Assembly: GCA_040881665.1 (NCBI GenBank) | Contig: JBBECT010000004.1 | Location: 1-64,000, forward strand | DNA: 64,000 nucleotides | Reading direction: 5' to 3' | From: Actinomycetota bacterium | Lineage (GTDB): Bacteria; Actinomycetota; UBA4738; HRBIN12 | Shown here: positions 15,342 through 23,165 of the stretch, one piece after another | How positions within the stretch are numbered: position 1 is the first letter of the stretch | Layout: each line of letters begins with the position of its first letter | Made by a program: the position numbers and the translations under genes | The notes under the pieces: generated by a model | Databases searched by the model: none | Told to the model about the DNA's origin: nothing | Seen by the model: the letters and a program-made list of their open reading frames with translations, nothing else

Positions 15342-16688
15342 GTGACGGCGAGCTCGACGTTCGGCTACGCGAAGACCGACGACGGCATCTACCTCGGCTA
15401 TCGGGTGGACGGTGATGGTCCGATCGACGTCGTGAGTCAATCCGACTGGCCGGGCAACATCGACCTGGAATGGGACGACCCCGTCTCGGGGGATTGGCTG
15501 CGCGAGCTGCGCTCGTTCTCCAGGGTGATCACGCACGACCCGCGAGGCCTCGGGCTGTCGAGTCGCAACGTCGGTCTCCCCACGCTCGAGACCCGCGTGT
15601 CCGACCTCATGACCGTGCTGAACACGATCGGAGTCCGACGGCCCGTGCTCTTCGGCGTCCTCGCCACGGGAGCGGTCAACATCCTTGCCGCCGCGACGCG
15701 GCCGCGGCTCCCCCGTGCCTTGGTCTGGGTCGAACCGGCGCCTCGTTACGCGCGGGCCGAGGACTTCCCCTGGGGCGTGACGCCCGAGGACCTGCAAAGC
15801 GAGCTCGACTTCATCGACCTGTGGGGGACCGAGGCATACGGGAAGGCATTCCTGCAGGATCAGGAAGTCCTGGGGAACGTCATGCCTCCCGAACTTGGCG
15901 CGTACATGCCGAGGTGGACCCGCGGCGCATGCACGCCCGACGTCGCACGGAAGTTGGTTCAGATGTGGGCCGAGATCGACGTCCGGAACGTGCTCGACGC
16001 GGTGCGAACTCCCACGCTTCTGCTCGTGCACAAGGAACGGAAGGACGCCGTCGACACCGCCGAGTACGTCGCCGCCCGGATGCCCGCGGCCGAAGTCCGC
16101 GCGATGCCAGGCGATGCCTGGGACTCGGAGGATTTCCCCGCATGGGTCGAGCAGATCCGCGACTTCATCGGCGTGGAACGGCCATCGGCGGCGCACAGCA
16201 CCGTGTTGGCCACCGTGCTGTTCACGGACATCGTTGGTTCCACTCAGCGGTCCTCCGCGATGCCCGGCCGTGAGTGGAAGGAGTTGCTCCAGCGACATCA
16301 CGCGATCGTGCGTGATTCCTTGCACCACCTCGACGGCACCGAGGTCGATACGGCCGGCGATGGCTTCTACGCCACTTTCGACGGACCCGCGCGTGCGATC
16401 CGGTGCGCGGTCGACATCGCAGAACGCGTCGCAGAGCTCGGGATCGAGATCCGCGCGGGGATCCATACCGGTGAGTGCGAAGTGATCGACGGCAATGCCG
16501 GCGGGCTGGCCGTCTCGATCGGAGCCAGGGTCGCGGCGAACGCCGGGCCGTCGGAGGTGTTGGTTTCGCAGACCGTGAGGGACCTCGTCGCCGGCTCCGG
16601 ACTCACCTTCGAGGATGCCGGCGAGCACGAGCTGAAGGGCGTCCCCGACCGCTGGCACCTCTACCGAGTCGTGGGCCACACCGCCTGA
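15342..16688 (+). CDS. Alpha/beta-hydrolase-like domain fused to class III adenylate/guanylate cyclase
   Basis: 448 residues, cytoplasmic. Residues 1-275 have an alpha/beta-hydrolase fold pattern (THDPRGLGLSS; LLLVHKERKDAVDTAEYVA), but the nucleophile-elbow stretch F104-GVLATG110 has no serine, so hydrolase activity is unlikely and the domain may be a sensor. Residues ~285-448 form a class III cyclase: metal-binding D296 (LFTDIVGST), D340 (AGDGFYATF), and the AGIHTGECE strand. The usual base-selecting Lys position holds D336, as in several actinobacterial relatives. GTG 15342. Neighbours give no pathway. Confidence 0.85.
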   Translation: MTASSTFGYAKTDDGIYLGYRVDGDGPIDVVSQSDWPGNIDLEWDDPVSGDWLRELRSFSRVITHDPRGLGLSSRNVGLPTLETRVSDLMTVLNTIGVRRPVLFGVLATGAVNILAAATRPRLPRALVWVEPAPRYARAEDFPWGVTPEDLQSELDFIDLWGTEAYGKAFLQDQEVLGNVMPPELGAYMPRWTRGACTPDVARKLVQMWAEIDVRNVLDAVRTPTLLLVHKERKDAVDTAEYVAARMPAAEVRAMPGDAWDSEDFPAWVEQIRDFIGVERPSAAHSTVLATVLFTDIVGSTQRSSAMPGREWKELLQRHHAIVRDSLHHLDGTEVDTAGDGFYATFDGPARAIRCAVDIAERVAELGIEIRAGIHTGECEVIDGNAGGLAVSIGARVAANAGPSEVLVSQTVRDLVAGSGLTFEDAGEHELKGVPDRWHLYRVVGHTA

Positions 16689-18890: not shown

Positions 18891-19811
18891 TCAGCGACGC
18901 TCGCCGAAGCGAGACTCCACCCTCGCCGCCGTGGCCGCGGCAGCGAGGGTGTTCCCGACGAGCCAGACGTCCGTGACCGGCCCCACGCCGCCCGGGACCG
19001 GAGTGATCGCCTCCGCTCGGGCTCCGACACGTTCGAAGTCCAGGTCGCCAACGATGTGGACCTCTCCCGTCGAATGATCCTTCAGGGCATTGATGCCGAC
19101 GTCGAGGGCGATCACGCCCTCGCGGACCATCTCCCCGGTGATCAGCGCCGGCACGCCGGTCGCCGCGATGAGGATGTCGGCCTGGCGCGTGAAGTCGGCG
19201 AGGCGGCCGGCCTCGTCTGTTCCGGAGTGACAGGTGACCACCGTCGCGTCGCGCTGGAGGCCGAGCGATTGGGCTGGCTTGCCCACGCCGTTGGAGCGTC
19301 CCACCACCACGAGGGTTCGTCCGCGGTAGAACCGGGACGGATCGAAGCCTTGCGACCCAGCGTAGGAGTCCAGGATGTGGAAGCACGCGGCCGCCGTGGA
19401 GGGGATGAACCGGGGGCGTCCCTGCGCGAGCAGACCGGCGTTGACGGGGTGGACCGCCTCGATGTCCTTGAGCGGGTCCAAGGCGGAGTTGATCTCGGCC
19501 TCAGGCAGTTGCGGGGGCAGCGGCTGCAGGACGATGATCCCCGTGACCCGAGGGTCGGCGTTCAGCTTGCCGATCGTGGCGACGACCTCCGCGAGCTCCA
19601 CGTTCGGGGCCAAGTGCTCTCGCACGTACCGGTACTCCAGCTCCTCGGCCAGGCGGTGGACGTGCCGCTCGTACGCGAGCGCTCCGTAGTCCTCCCCGAA
19701 CACCACGGTGGCGAGCCCCGGCCGGACCGCCGAGCGCCGCAAGACCCGCAGCTCGTCCTCGATGCTCGCCTTGAGCTCCTCGGCCAGCGCGTTGCCGTCG
19801 ATCACGTTCAT
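18891..19811 (-). CDS. FolD homologue with altered catalytic residues
   Basis: 306 residues, length and fold of bifunctional methylene-THF dehydrogenase/cyclohydrolase FolD. The Rossmann segment (VVVGRSNGVGKPAQSL), VIDGNALAEEL start and TPVPGGVGPVT are preserved. Aligned by eye to E. coli FolD, the Lys essential for cyclohydrolase is V51 (Y47 four residues before it is kept), the active-site Gln is L95, and the Asp of KDVDGFHP is E118 in KDIEAVHP. The PCTP segment is also changed (PSTAAAC). The fold is clear but classical activity is not expected; it could act on another one-carbon substrate or pterin. ATG 19811 with a weak ribosome site. No folate genes adjacent. Confidence 0.85.
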   Translation of the reverse strand: MNVIDGNALAEELKASIEDELRVLRRSAVRPGLATVVFGEDYGALAYERHVHRLAEELEYRYVREHLAPNVELAEVVATIGKLNADPRVTGIIVLQPLPPQLPEAEINSALDPLKDIEAVHPVNAGLLAQGRPRFIPSTAAACFHILDSYAGSQGFDPSRFYRGRTLVVVGRSNGVGKPAQSLGLQRDATVVTCHSGTDEAGRLADFTRQADILIAATGVPALITGEMVREGVIALDVGINALKDHSTGEVHIVGDLDFERVGARAEAITPVPGGVGPVTDVWLVGNTLAAAATAARVESRFGERR

Positions 19812-20011: not shown

Positions 20012-20983
20012 CTAGCCCGTGGTACCCACAGACGAAGGTGGATCGATCGGACGCGGGATCGACGAGCGCCGTGGCCGCAAGTCAGTTGCATCCGCCAGGC
20101 CCAGTTCTTCAACGACCTTCAGGTCTGAAATCTCCCCGACCTGATCACCCCCACCCCAGAAGGATCGGATCGCGAGGAGTTCGTGGCTGGACGGATCCAC
20201 GAAGAGCTCCTGTCGGACGCCGTCCGACACCGCGTGAAATGAGATCCGGTAACTAGGCCGCCCAACAGGATCTGTTGCGGAGAGGTCGACCTTGGCACCT
20301 CGCAGCTCTGCGGCGACGTTCAGCAGTGCGGCGCGGTGGGTCGGGGTGACGTTCGGCATCGCGAGCAGGTCGGTGATCGCGCGCCACAGCTGCCCGTCCT
20401 TGGGGTCCGACCCGGGAGGAGGACTCACGACGGGGGCCGGTGAGGCTCCCGAAGGTTGGCTCCGTTCCAGTAGGAACTCCTTCAGCTCGTCCGGATCGGT
20501 CGGGAATCGGCTGGTGTTCGTCTCCCTGGGGAGCTCACCCGGGCCGAAGGTCTTGTCGTCTCGTTCCGAGTAGCGAAGCCGTCCCGAGTCGTCGGGTGCC
20601 CACCACTTTTCCGTAACGCCGTTCTCGATCAATGGCGTCATCGTGCCCTCGGGGGACTGCTCGCCACCGCCGATGCGAAAATCCGTGACCCGCGCGTAGT
20701 AATACTGGCCGTCGAGGACCTCCAACGGCGCGGCGATGGCGGGGGGCAGGATTCGGGGGGGCTCGCTCACCGAGGCGGGGCCCTGTGACGACCGGCCGAG
20801 CAGGAACGAGGCGGCCACGGCCATCGCCACGACGCCGATCGCCGACGCGCCTACACCCGACGCGAAACGCCTGCGGCGCTGCAGGCTGTGTCGTCGTCGG
20901 TGGATATCCGCGAGTCCCAGGTCTAGGGTCGGCACCTCCCGCGCCGCACGCAGGAGCAGGTTTCGACTGTCAGATGTCGTCAC
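20012..20983 (-). CDS. Membrane protein coupled to ECF sigma factor (CU044_5270-like)
   Basis: 323 residues: cytoplasmic N terminus with a basic stretch (HRRRHSLQRRRRFASG), one TM helix ~45-63, then an extracytoplasmic domain ~90-300 with YYYARVTDFRIGG and LWRAITDLLAMPNVTPTHRA typical of the CU044_5270 group. Such proteins are encoded with an ECF sigma factor and probably act as its membrane regulator, although no zinc anti-sigma (HxxxCxxC) motif is present. The start overlaps the sigma gene by 14 bases. Confidence 0.75.
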   Translation of the reverse strand: MTTSDSRNLLLRAAREVPTLDLGLADIHRRRHSLQRRRRFASGVGASAIGVVAMAVAASFLLGRSSQGPASVSEPPRILPPAIAAPLEVLDGQYYYARVTDFRIGGGEQSPEGTMTPLIENGVTEKWWAPDDSGRLRYSERDDKTFGPGELPRETNTSRFPTDPDELKEFLLERSQPSGASPAPVVSPPPGSDPKDGQLWRAITDLLAMPNVTPTHRAALLNVAAELRGAKVDLSATDPVGRPSYRISFHAVSDGVRQELFVDPSSHELLAIRSFWGGGDQVGEISDLKVVEELGLADATDLRPRRSSIPRPIDPPSSVGTTG

Positions 20984-21482
20984 GGGATACTCCTTCCCTC
21001 AGGCCGTCCCGTCCTCGTGCAAGCAGGACGCGGACCGTAGACGGCTTTATCCCAAGCAGCTGGCTCGTCTCTTCCGTGGTTCGATCGCTGAGATCGACCA
21101 ACACAAGCACCGCTCGCTGCCTCGGGGTGAGCCGATCCAGAGCTCGCGACACGGTGTCGCGAGCCTCGATCGCCGAGAGTTCGTCGCGCTCGGTCCGGTC
21201 GAAGACGCGGCGGACGGCGGCCAGGCTCCTGCGACGTCTGTTCCGGATCAGGTTGAATGCGACCCGGAACAGATATCCCTCAAGGTCCTGAACGTGACCA
21301 AGGTCCCCCCATCGCTCGAGGAGGCGCACGAAGGCATCTTGAGTAACCTCCTCCGCTTCGGTCCGGTCACGAATCGCCAGGTACACAGCGGTAAACAGCG
21401 ATTGGCGCTGAGACACGAAGAAGTCCTCGAAGAGCAGATCGGGGCTTGCCTCCGAGATCGAGGGCGACGGAACGTTGCTCAT
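20970..21482 (-). CDS. ECF sigma factor 1 (SigE/SigM-like)
   Basis: 170-residue sigma-70 family ECF factor. Region 2 ~24-90 (FVSQRQSLFTAVYLAIRD, AEEVTQDAFVRLLERW) contacts core RNA polymerase and the -10 element; region 4 ~110-165 (LTPRQRAVLVLVDL, LLGIKPSTVRVLLARGR) binds the -35 element. Its 3' end overlaps its membrane regulator. An almost identical arrangement follows upstream, making two tandem modules on one strand. Confidence 0.92.
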   Translation of the reverse strand: MSNVPSPSISEASPDLLFEDFFVSQRQSLFTAVYLAIRDRTEAEEVTQDAFVRLLERWGDLGHVQDLEGYLFRVAFNLIRNRRRRSLAAVRRVFDRTERDELSAIEARDTVSRALDRLTPRQRAVLVLVDLSDRTTEETSQLLGIKPSTVRVLLARGRDGLREGVSRDDI

Positions 21483-21565: not shown

Positions 21566-22669
21566 TCAGGCGATCCAGCTCCCCGCCCCCTCCACCGTCC
21601 CTACGACCTTCCAGCCCGCCGCTGTTTGACGGACCTCCCATGCCGACCCGGTTCCGCACAGTCCGCCGCAGACCATGCTCCCCGCGACCTCGAAGTGATC
21701 GTTCCGACGGTGGAGCGGTCCGACCCAAACGTAGACTCCCCGACCGCTCGCCCAAAGCCGATCGCGATCGTGCACCTCGCTGAAGTCGGTGACGAAGAAC
21801 ACGCGCGCTTCGTCGGCCAGTCGGTTTGCAAGGTACGACTGCTCCTGCGGCGTGAAGGCGGTTTCGCAATCCTTACCGAAGGAACCGCTGTCCGCGTTCT
21901 CGCAGAGCGTTTCGCGAATGAAGATCGTGTCCCACCTCCCGGCGGCCTCTAGGCTGATCAAGTGCCTGACCGCGGCCTCGTAGACCTCCATCCGCGTAGT
22001 GTCGCCAACCGGGAGGGACTCGGTGTCCGTCGAGCTGGAGGTTGAAGGCCCCTCAGTCGATAGCCCGAAGTAGAAATGTGTGTATCCCCTGTCCCCGAGG
22101 GCCGTGATGTCCAGCAAGTAGAAGGACGGACCGGCTACCGGAAGGTTTAGCCGAGCAACGCGGTCCTCGATGTCGACTGCCAACTCTCCGAAGTCGACAG
22201 ATGATCTATGAGTTTGGAGCGTCACCTGAGCCGACACTGGATCAAGGGTTCCTCTGAACCGGACCGAACTACTCGGTGGCACGTCGAGATACTCCGCAGG
22301 GATCGGGTCGTGTGTGACGCTTCTGCAATCCGGCGCTGGGCAGAAGCCGTTCGGGCGATACGTTCGAGTTACGCCATCGAACTCGATCGTTCCGATCGGA
22401 TCAGCTTCCTCCGAGGAGAGGAGCACCTCAACGGCGGGGCCGTCAGTATCGCTGGATATCGCGGTCGTGGATGGTGGTTCGCCGAATGTTTGAGCGACCA
22501 GAAGAACCGCAGCTGACCCGACCACGAGCGCGAGCACTCCGGCAATGATCCGCTGTGTCCGAATGCGAGCGTGGGCGCGAGCCTGAAGGTCATGCAGCTT
22601 GAGAGGGGCCAGCGGGACTGCCCTGAGCTCTCTGTCGAGCCGATCCTTCAACTCACGCATCCTCATCAC
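21566..22669 (-). CDS. Membrane protein paired with ECF sigma factor 2
   Basis: 367 residues: cytoplasmic N terminus (MRELKDRLDRELRAVPLAPL), TM ~40-60, and a long extracytoplasmic region with conserved-looking cysteines (FCPAPDCRS, LCENADSGSFGKDCE, MVCGGLCG). The C-terminal third (ATRMEVYEAAVRHL-type segment to WVGPLHRRND) is unlike module 1. The 17-base overlap with the sigma gene argues for a regulator of that factor. No family assigned. Confidence 0.65.
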   Translation of the reverse strand: MMRMRELKDRLDRELRAVPLAPLKLHDLQARAHARIRTQRIIAGVLALVVGSAAVLLVAQTFGEPPSTTAISSDTDGPAVEVLLSSEEADPIGTIEFDGVTRTYRPNGFCPAPDCRSVTHDPIPAEYLDVPPSSSVRFRGTLDPVSAQVTLQTHRSSVDFGELAVDIEDRVARLNLPVAGPSFYLLDITALGDRGYTHFYFGLSTEGPSTSSSTDTESLPVGDTTRMEVYEAAVRHLISLEAAGRWDTIFIRETLCENADSGSFGKDCETAFTPQEQSYLANRLADEARVFFVTDFSEVHDRDRLWASGRGVYVWVGPLHRRNDHFEVAGSMVCGGLCGTGSAWEVRQTAAGWKVVGTVEGAGSWIA

Positions 22670-23165
22670 TCCCTAGACTCGCCCGCAGCGTCTGCTTGGC
22701 CCGATGGACACGGCTTCGCACCGACCCCGGTGATATTCGAAGAGTCTCGGCCGCCTCTTCGGAATTCATGCCGAGCCACTCCACGAGAACGATCGCTGCT
22801 CGCTGTCCGGGCGAGATCGAGGCCAGGGCTGACAGGATCTCGCCGGGTACGTGCGACTCCATCGGCGAGCGGCGATCGAGGTGAAGCAGATTTCGCGCAC
22901 GCACTTTCAGGTGATGCAGTCGTTTGCGCTGGAGATTCAGGGCGGTTGAATAGACGTACCCCTCCGGGGAACTCATCGCCTGGACGCGATCCCATCGCTC
23001 GTAGGCACGCACCATCGCCTCCTGAGACACGTCTTCCGCCTCGGCCACGTCGAGAGTCACGGCGTAGATCAGACGCACCAATCGTGGGTACTCGTCTTCA
23101 AAGAAGCGCGCGAAGGGCCGAGCTTCGAGGCTTGAGGGGTCCGCGTCGGCCTGACCTGTCCTCAT
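22653..23165 (-). CDS. ECF sigma factor 2
   Basis: 170-residue ECF factor: region 2 ~20-85 (FFEDEYPRLVRLIYAVTLDV, AEDVSQEAMVRAYERW) and region 4 ~108-160 (ISPGQRAAIVLVEWLGMNSE, LRISPGSVRSRVHRAKQ). Same length and spacing as factor 1 but clearly different sequence, so the pair is an old duplication or two independent modules. First gene of the four-gene minus-strand run. Confidence 0.92.
   Translation of the reverse strand: MRTGQADADPSSLEARPFARFFEDEYPRLVRLIYAVTLDVAEAEDVSQEAMVRAYERWDRVQAMSSPEGYVYSTALNLQRKRLHHLKVRARNLLHLDRRSPMESHVPGEILSALASISPGQRAAIVLVEWLGMNSEEAAETLRISPGSVRSRVHRAKQTLRASLGSDEDA

Follow-up and report, generated by a model that had tools for sequence, protein, structure and literature searches.

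What is the function of a FolD protein whose catalytic residues have been exchanged and whose motifs for the binding of folate and of the dinucleotide cofactor have been kept? This question is raised by a gene (18891..19811) on the minus strand of the window, i.e., the whole 64,000-nucleotide stretch of Actinomycetota DNA analyzed here; its open frame runs from an ATG at position 19811 to a stop codon at position 18891 and codes for 306 amino acids. From sequence comparisons, we consider it likely that this gene, which we name FolD2 together with its relatives, encodes a FolD paralogue that has kept the methylene-tetrahydrofolate dehydrogenase, has lost the methenyl-THF cyclohydrolase, and is used in the oxidation of one-carbon units.

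The FolD2 Protein and Its Active Site

The window protein matches PF00763 (84.6 bits) and PF02882 (156.7 bits) in Pfam, both above cut-off, the pair of matches by which the FolD superfamily (THF_DHG_CYH) is recognized. No domain beyond these two was found by Pfam in the protein, and a Pfam search of the plus strand of 18891-19811 gave no match. Among solved structures, FolD/MTHFD proteins are closest in sequence (best E-value 7.7e-48). The best NCBIfam FolD match scores 233 bits against a cut-off of 396; the canonical FolD of the same genome likewise stays below its cut-off (363.8 versus 421 bits). Comparison of the gene with its closest relative gave a dN of about 0.19 and a dS of about 1.04, and hence it is under constraint through purifying selection. 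The open frame, the Pfam matches and this constraint underlie its designation as a gene for a predicted cyclohydrolase-less 5,10-methylene-THF dehydrogenase.

The active site was assessed by an alignment with the canonical FolD of the same genome and about 100 other FolD proteins, and all codons given here lie on the minus strand. The lysine of the YxxxK motif (Lys56 in the human enzyme, Lys54 in that of E. coli) is replaced by Val51 (19659..19661), the equivalent of human Gln100 by Leu95 (19527..19529), and that of the pterin-binding human Asp125 by Glu118 (19458..19460); the window protein thus lacks the residues of the bifunctional FolD enzymes at these positions. A shift in the alignment is not at issue, since the spacing of the GI(I/L)V-x-x-PLP segment equals that of the canonical FolD. 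Kept are Tyr47 (19671..19673), which corresponds to Tyr52 of human MTHFD1, the dinucleotide-binding motif GRSNGVGKP (19275..19301), with a glycine where isoleucine or leucine is usual and with GRS as residues 171-173, the TCHSGT segment (19218..19235), whose His-Ser pair at the 2'-phosphate site is of the NADP type, and the PGGVGP motif (18978..18995; residues 273-278). The sequence-only reading of this DNA had named the three exchanges as V51, L95 and E118 and the Rossmann and PGGVGP regions as retained; the alignment bears out both statements, down to the residue numbers.

What these exchanges may mean can be judged from studies of the human enzymes. According to this literature, Lys56 together with Gln100 has a role in hydride transfer, and Lys56 possibly takes part in proton transfer during the cyclohydrolase reaction; the residues assigned to binding are Tyr52 and Asp125 (PMC3368264; PMC6443876), with Tyr52 stacking onto the substrate (PMC3368264). 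Kinetic data have been read in a further study as giving Lys56 a mainly binding role in the dehydrogenase reaction, with a catalytic role in the cyclohydrolase reaction left possible (PMC9173628). As Lys56 has also been proposed to assist the dehydrogenase step (PMC3368264), the joint loss of the Lys, Gln and Asp residues could weaken the dehydrogenase activity as well.

The Host Genome and the Genetic Surroundings of folD2

The assembly that contains the window (2.46 Mb in seven contigs, 95.9% complete) harbors two FolD genes. The other one, on contig C7, is canonical at all four positions (Y-K-Q-D) and adjoins genes that, named by reading their sequences, are purH and metF. The window gene is thus a paralogue; that it might be the only FolD of the genome, which would have spoken against the sequence-only reading, is ruled out by this canonical copy. 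The view of that reading that the gene does not stand in for the housekeeping folD, for which it had advised a search for a second, canonical gene, is thereby upheld.

The same reading held that the gene stands alone. This applies to the window, where its neighbors are unrelated by Pfam (a hemerythrin, a cyclase-domain protein, a glyoxalase, a cupredoxin and ECF sigma factors), but not to the subfamily, whose copies often adjoin genes of one-carbon (C1) metabolism. The cyclase-domain protein (15342-16688, plus strand; 448 amino acids) carries a guanylate/adenylate cyclase domain at its C-terminus; its N-terminal part has no Pfam match and reads like an alpha/beta hydrolase. On the minus strand between 20012 and 23165, two genes code for ECF-type sigma factors (20970-21482 and 22653-23165), and each is followed by a gene without a Pfam match (20012-20983 and 21566-22669), probably two adjoining sigma/anti-sigma-like pairs.

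In the relatives from the window's family, folD2 adjoins ligA and gatC/gatA or lies between them, and pabBC is often found a few kilobases from it. In the window's genome, the ligA-gatC locus is intact on contig C5, with gatC following ligA and without folD2; a fixed locus throughout the family is thereby ruled out, and the gene has moved, yet stayed under constraint. Contig C5 also holds, side by side, a gene for Fhs, two genes for GCV_T proteins, and a molybdopterin/NuoEF cluster resembling a formate dehydrogenase. Thirteen of the 17 genomes of the family possess folD2 and four lack it, and the gene is therefore not essential to the lineage.

The FolD2 Subfamily

Relatives of the window protein with 49-74% identity occur in Actinomycetota, where FolD2, judged by the titles of the records, spans several classes and is carried by the window's family, Rubrobacter, Pseudonocardia, Amycolatopsis, Streptomyces, Nocardia, Nonomuraea, Euzebyaceae and others. 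On the FolD tree they form a single group (support 100), and beside it lies a second actinobacterial group (YRGQV / LRPFP / KDID; support 98). According to a survey across life, no ancient duplication of the FolD family is found in the stems of the major prokaryotic phyla (PMC11064299).

Across 51 distinct FolD2 copies, position 51 is occupied by Leu, Val or Ile (30, 19 and 2 copies, respectively), and positions 95 and 118 are Leu and Glu without exception. The 85 canonical sequences all possess Lys, Gln and Asp, but as these were selected by their YKQD state, only their contrast with FolD2 is informative and not the 85/85 itself. Judged by these alignments, the V51/L95/E118 pattern is far beyond chance. 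Tyr47 (Tyr in 51/51), GRS and PGGVGP are invariant (51/51, or 50/50 where one copy has a gap), and position 96 is always Arg, Lys, Gln or His.

These data bear on the possibility that FolD2 is a pseudo-enzyme, either weak in catalysis or regulatory, to which folate binds without being turned over. The replacement of three catalytic positions would fit such a protein, as would the isolation of the gene in the window and its absence from four of the 17 relatives, but the invariance of Tyr47, GRS and PGGVGP, the low dN/dS ratio and the catalytic C1 enzymes encoded beside the relatives argue against it, and we regard it as quite improbable.

Association with a Separate Cyclohydrolase

The relationship between the Lys residue and FchA, the separate cyclohydrolase, was examined in DNA surrounding FTCD_C matches and surrounding 40 FolD genes not located beside one, with four residues scored per FolD. 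The 40 controls form a non-random set, hand-picked among the matches listed as those nearest to the query, with FTCD_C-adjacent ones excluded and with flanks of about 1 kb. Removal of rows with a gap at any of the four positions or with fewer than 200 residues left 189 of 190 distinct FolDs. The Lys is absent from all 65 distinct FolDs whose genes have an FchA/FTCD_C gene no more than 400 bp away, with both genes on one strand in every case; these originate from Actinomycetota (57), Omnitrophota (7) and Chloroflexota (1). Of the 124 FolDs for which no FchA was seen within 400 bp, 86 keep the Lys, and the 38 without it are 36 FolD2 proteins and two from Nitrospirota. Within FolD2, fchA directly adjoins folD in 15 of the 51 copies. 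Nine of the 30 FTCD_C loci examined in Bacillota hold a FolD, and all nine lack the Lys or the Gln: three have exchanged the Lys for Ala, and six (L332, L333, L336, L338, L339 and L348) have kept it and carry Glu in place of Gln (VELPLP). Two further actinobacterial FchA-adjacent FolDs (L309, L311) likewise lack the Lys or the Gln. Taken together, every FchA-adjacent FolD examined has lost one or the other.

Since two changes suffice to explain the loss of the Lys on the tree, with or without the motif columns (one to two independent pairs), the 65/65 association must not be counted as 65 events, and the idea of many independent losses is set aside. The p-value of a Fisher test on this association is likewise unreliable, since the test takes no account of relatedness. 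A strict rule by which a missing Lys implies an adjacent FchA does not hold either, as it fails for the two Nitrospirota FolDs and for 36 of the 51 FolD2 copies. In the former (L065, 7995-8933; L072, 4840-5793), which represent the second loss on the tree, both Lys and Gln are replaced (by Ile or Phe, and by Thr or Leu), and no FchA was seen near them in the DNA examined.

At the level of genomes, and among the matches listed, 13 of 15 FolD2-bearing genomes contain FTCD_C, versus 72 of 231 others. One genome (G065) contains two fchA-folD2 pairs (L243, L244) about 0.94 Mb apart. Streptomyces tagetis (G271) possesses FolD2, and FTCD_C was not found in it; the window's genome, at 95.9% completeness, has no match to FTCD_C (PF04961). 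The only genome of the window's family scanned (G001, locus L155), which has no FolD2, carries FTCD_C adjoining FTCD_N, and it may therefore be a cyclodeaminase there.

The lack of FTCD_C in S. tagetis and in the window's genome would be understandable if FolD2 were still bifunctional, with the residue at position 96 and Glu118 having taken over hydrolysis and the FchA beside the relatives serving as a booster; the Arg, Lys, Gln or His always present at position 96 places a new polar group beside the pocket. We nevertheless consider this unlikely, given that the Lys and Gln credited with hydrolysis are gone from all 51 FolD2 proteins and that the Lys is also gone from all 65 FchA-adjacent copies. 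The loss of the cyclohydrolase, which the sequence-only reading had brought up as one of two options, appears to be the best reading, with both residues replaced and a separate cyclohydrolase adjoining close relatives.

Neighborhoods of FolD2 Genes and the Proposed Pathway

The neighborhoods of FolD2 genes comprise 48 rows, in which the loci of the window's family are counted twice, under two sources; 33 of the 48 are from outside this family. Genes were called by a GC-position heuristic, distances were measured between open frames, and neighbors were named by NCBIfam and Pfam scans of representatives. Within 8 kb, the 33 rows contain genes for DesA/LigM-like (15), MetF-like (14), Fhs (13), FchA (12), PurU (11) and FolP (9) proteins, along with parts resembling sarcosine oxidase, and at least one C1 gene is near FolD2 in 27 of them; the six rows with none (L006, L007, L030, L031, L036, L039) include some with short flanks. 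The representatives of Fhs and PurU (339 versus 286 bits) score above their cut-offs, those of the DesA-like (571.5 versus 800) and LigM-like (491 versus 580) proteins below, and that of FchA below for the FchA model (104 versus 275) and above for FTCD_C (131 versus 24.5). In 30 rows of canonical FolDs from other phyla, Fhs and PurU were each seen once and FchA never, a weak comparison made with actinobacterial probes. Folate-synthesis genes also occur near FolD2 (FolP in 9, FolC in 5 and PabBC in 14 of the 48 rows). FolP is found at L018, L020-L023, L025, L028, L029 and L035, in some of them accompanied by FolC and PabBC, as if the C1 route had brought its own folate supply.

These neighborhoods also bear on the other option of the sequence-only reading, that the enzyme acts on a different one-carbon carrier or on a modified folate. 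In favor of this idea, Asp125, which binds the edge of the pterin, is Glu in all 51 FolD2 proteins, and Arg, Lys, Gln or His is found at the position of Leu101, a residue that in the human enzymes contacts the pterin through its main chain (PMC3368264; PMC9173628). The neighbors of FolD2, however, are THF enzymes (Fhs, PurU, MetF-like, LigM/DesA) or make tetrahydrofolate (FolP, FolC, PabBC), and the window protein has no Pfam domain besides the two of FolD. The idea thus finds no support, and we judge it very improbable.

In the dehydrogenase-only reading that we prefer, folate and NAD(P)+ would still be bound by Tyr47, the Rossmann motifs and PGGVGP, a hydride would be removed from 5,10-methylene-THF, and the released 5,10-methenyl-THF would, without the Lys/Gln pair, not be converted at that site into 10-formyl-THF. 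Across the wider subfamily, a separate FchA-type enzyme would carry out the hydrolysis, the formyl group would then exit as formate via Fhs or PurU, and the whole chain would burn methyl groups released by THF-dependent demethylases. FolD2 is thus probably catabolic, with both the activities and the direction of the reaction predicted from the sequences. In the window's genome, the chain would be formed by the genes on contig C5 (the two GcvT-fold demethylase-like proteins, Fhs and the formate dehydrogenase-type cluster) and would lead to formate and CO2. As no FchA was found there, the housekeeping FolD would supply the hydrolysis in trans, and this hydrolysis by the canonical FolD is the weakest link of the account for this genome.

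Predicted Cofactor Preference

An acidic residue at the 2'-phosphate site of a Rossmann fold points to the use of NAD+. Canonical FolDs have His at this site in all 85 cases, followed mostly by Ser or Thr, and the 13 FolD2 proteins of the window's family, including that of the window, have His followed by Ser (11) or His (2). All 38 FolD2 proteins from outside the family have Asp, followed by Glu, Val, Ala or Arg, which suggests that they use NAD+. We would thus predict NADP+ as the cofactor in the window's clade and NAD+ in most other FolD2 enzymes. This prediction also draws on the contrast between Ser197 and Arg233 described in PMC9173628.

Relation to Known Systems and Implications

The window protein shares with bifunctional FolD and the D-C domain of MTHFD1 both domains, the substrate-stacking Tyr, GRS, PGGVGP and its length; it differs from them through Val, Leu and Glu in place of Lys, Gln and Asp, and through the separate canonical FolD in its genome. 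Clostridium perfringens reportedly possesses a monofunctional FolD that works with FchA and Fhs (Aluri et al., 2016), presumably with residue changes other than those of FolD2. The predicted division of labor is alike, FchA adjoins 15 of the 51 FolD2 copies, and the window protein shows the Lys/Gln loss of an FchA-paired FolD; FolD2, in contrast, is found in an actinobacterial demethylation context, and the window's genome contains no FchA gene. Since a monofunctional FolD with FchA is already known, FolD2 is a variant and not a new kind of enzyme. The MtdA/FchA/FtfL branch splits the same three reactions over three proteins. Earlier studies report the use of a separate FchA by some microorganisms (PMC7219735) and the MtdA/FchA/FtfL gene set of Methylobacterium (PMC9618320), from which the window protein is set apart by its FolD catalytic domain PF00763; as only this domain and PF02882 match, and the search gave no N-terminal domain of the MtdA type, its identity as an MtdA is set aside. 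LigM and DesA are described as THF-dependent O-demethylation enzymes of Sphingobium SYK-6. DesA/LigM-like genes are near FolD2 in 15 of the 33 rows from outside the window's family, but FolD2 is a dedicated FolD paralogue, often accompanied by PurU and folate-synthesis genes, and no LigM/DesA genes surround the window gene. Literature searches, whose coverage mostly left out subscription papers, found no published description of actinobacterial FolD2 clusters.

FolD2 is a real and conserved FolD variant and is most likely dehydrogenase-only and catabolic. As a broader and tentative scenario, about which we have more doubt than confidence, the Lys/Gln-less FolDs might be one old and separate dehydrogenase-only lineage that accompanies FchA in at least four phyla. 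Actinomycetota would have recruited it for methyl oxidation and changed its cofactor to NAD+, and in the window's family it would have become FchA-independent, partnered there with the cell's own bifunctional FolD. The Lys/Gln-less FolDs lie on one side of the FolD tree, with a support of 90 that is not decisive, and this one-sided position makes it testable whether bifunctional FolD gained its second activity or whether that activity was lost.

All 25 NCBIfam models among the matches listed for the window protein are named bifunctional, so that annotations of genes of this type are likely to include an activity that the proteins probably lack. A sequence rule by which the Lys or the Gln is gone and fchA is adjacent would correct the folate-pathway models of many bacteria, and the actinobacterial FolD2 clusters point to a THF-based route by which the methyl groups of lignin aromatics and of methylated amines are oxidized.
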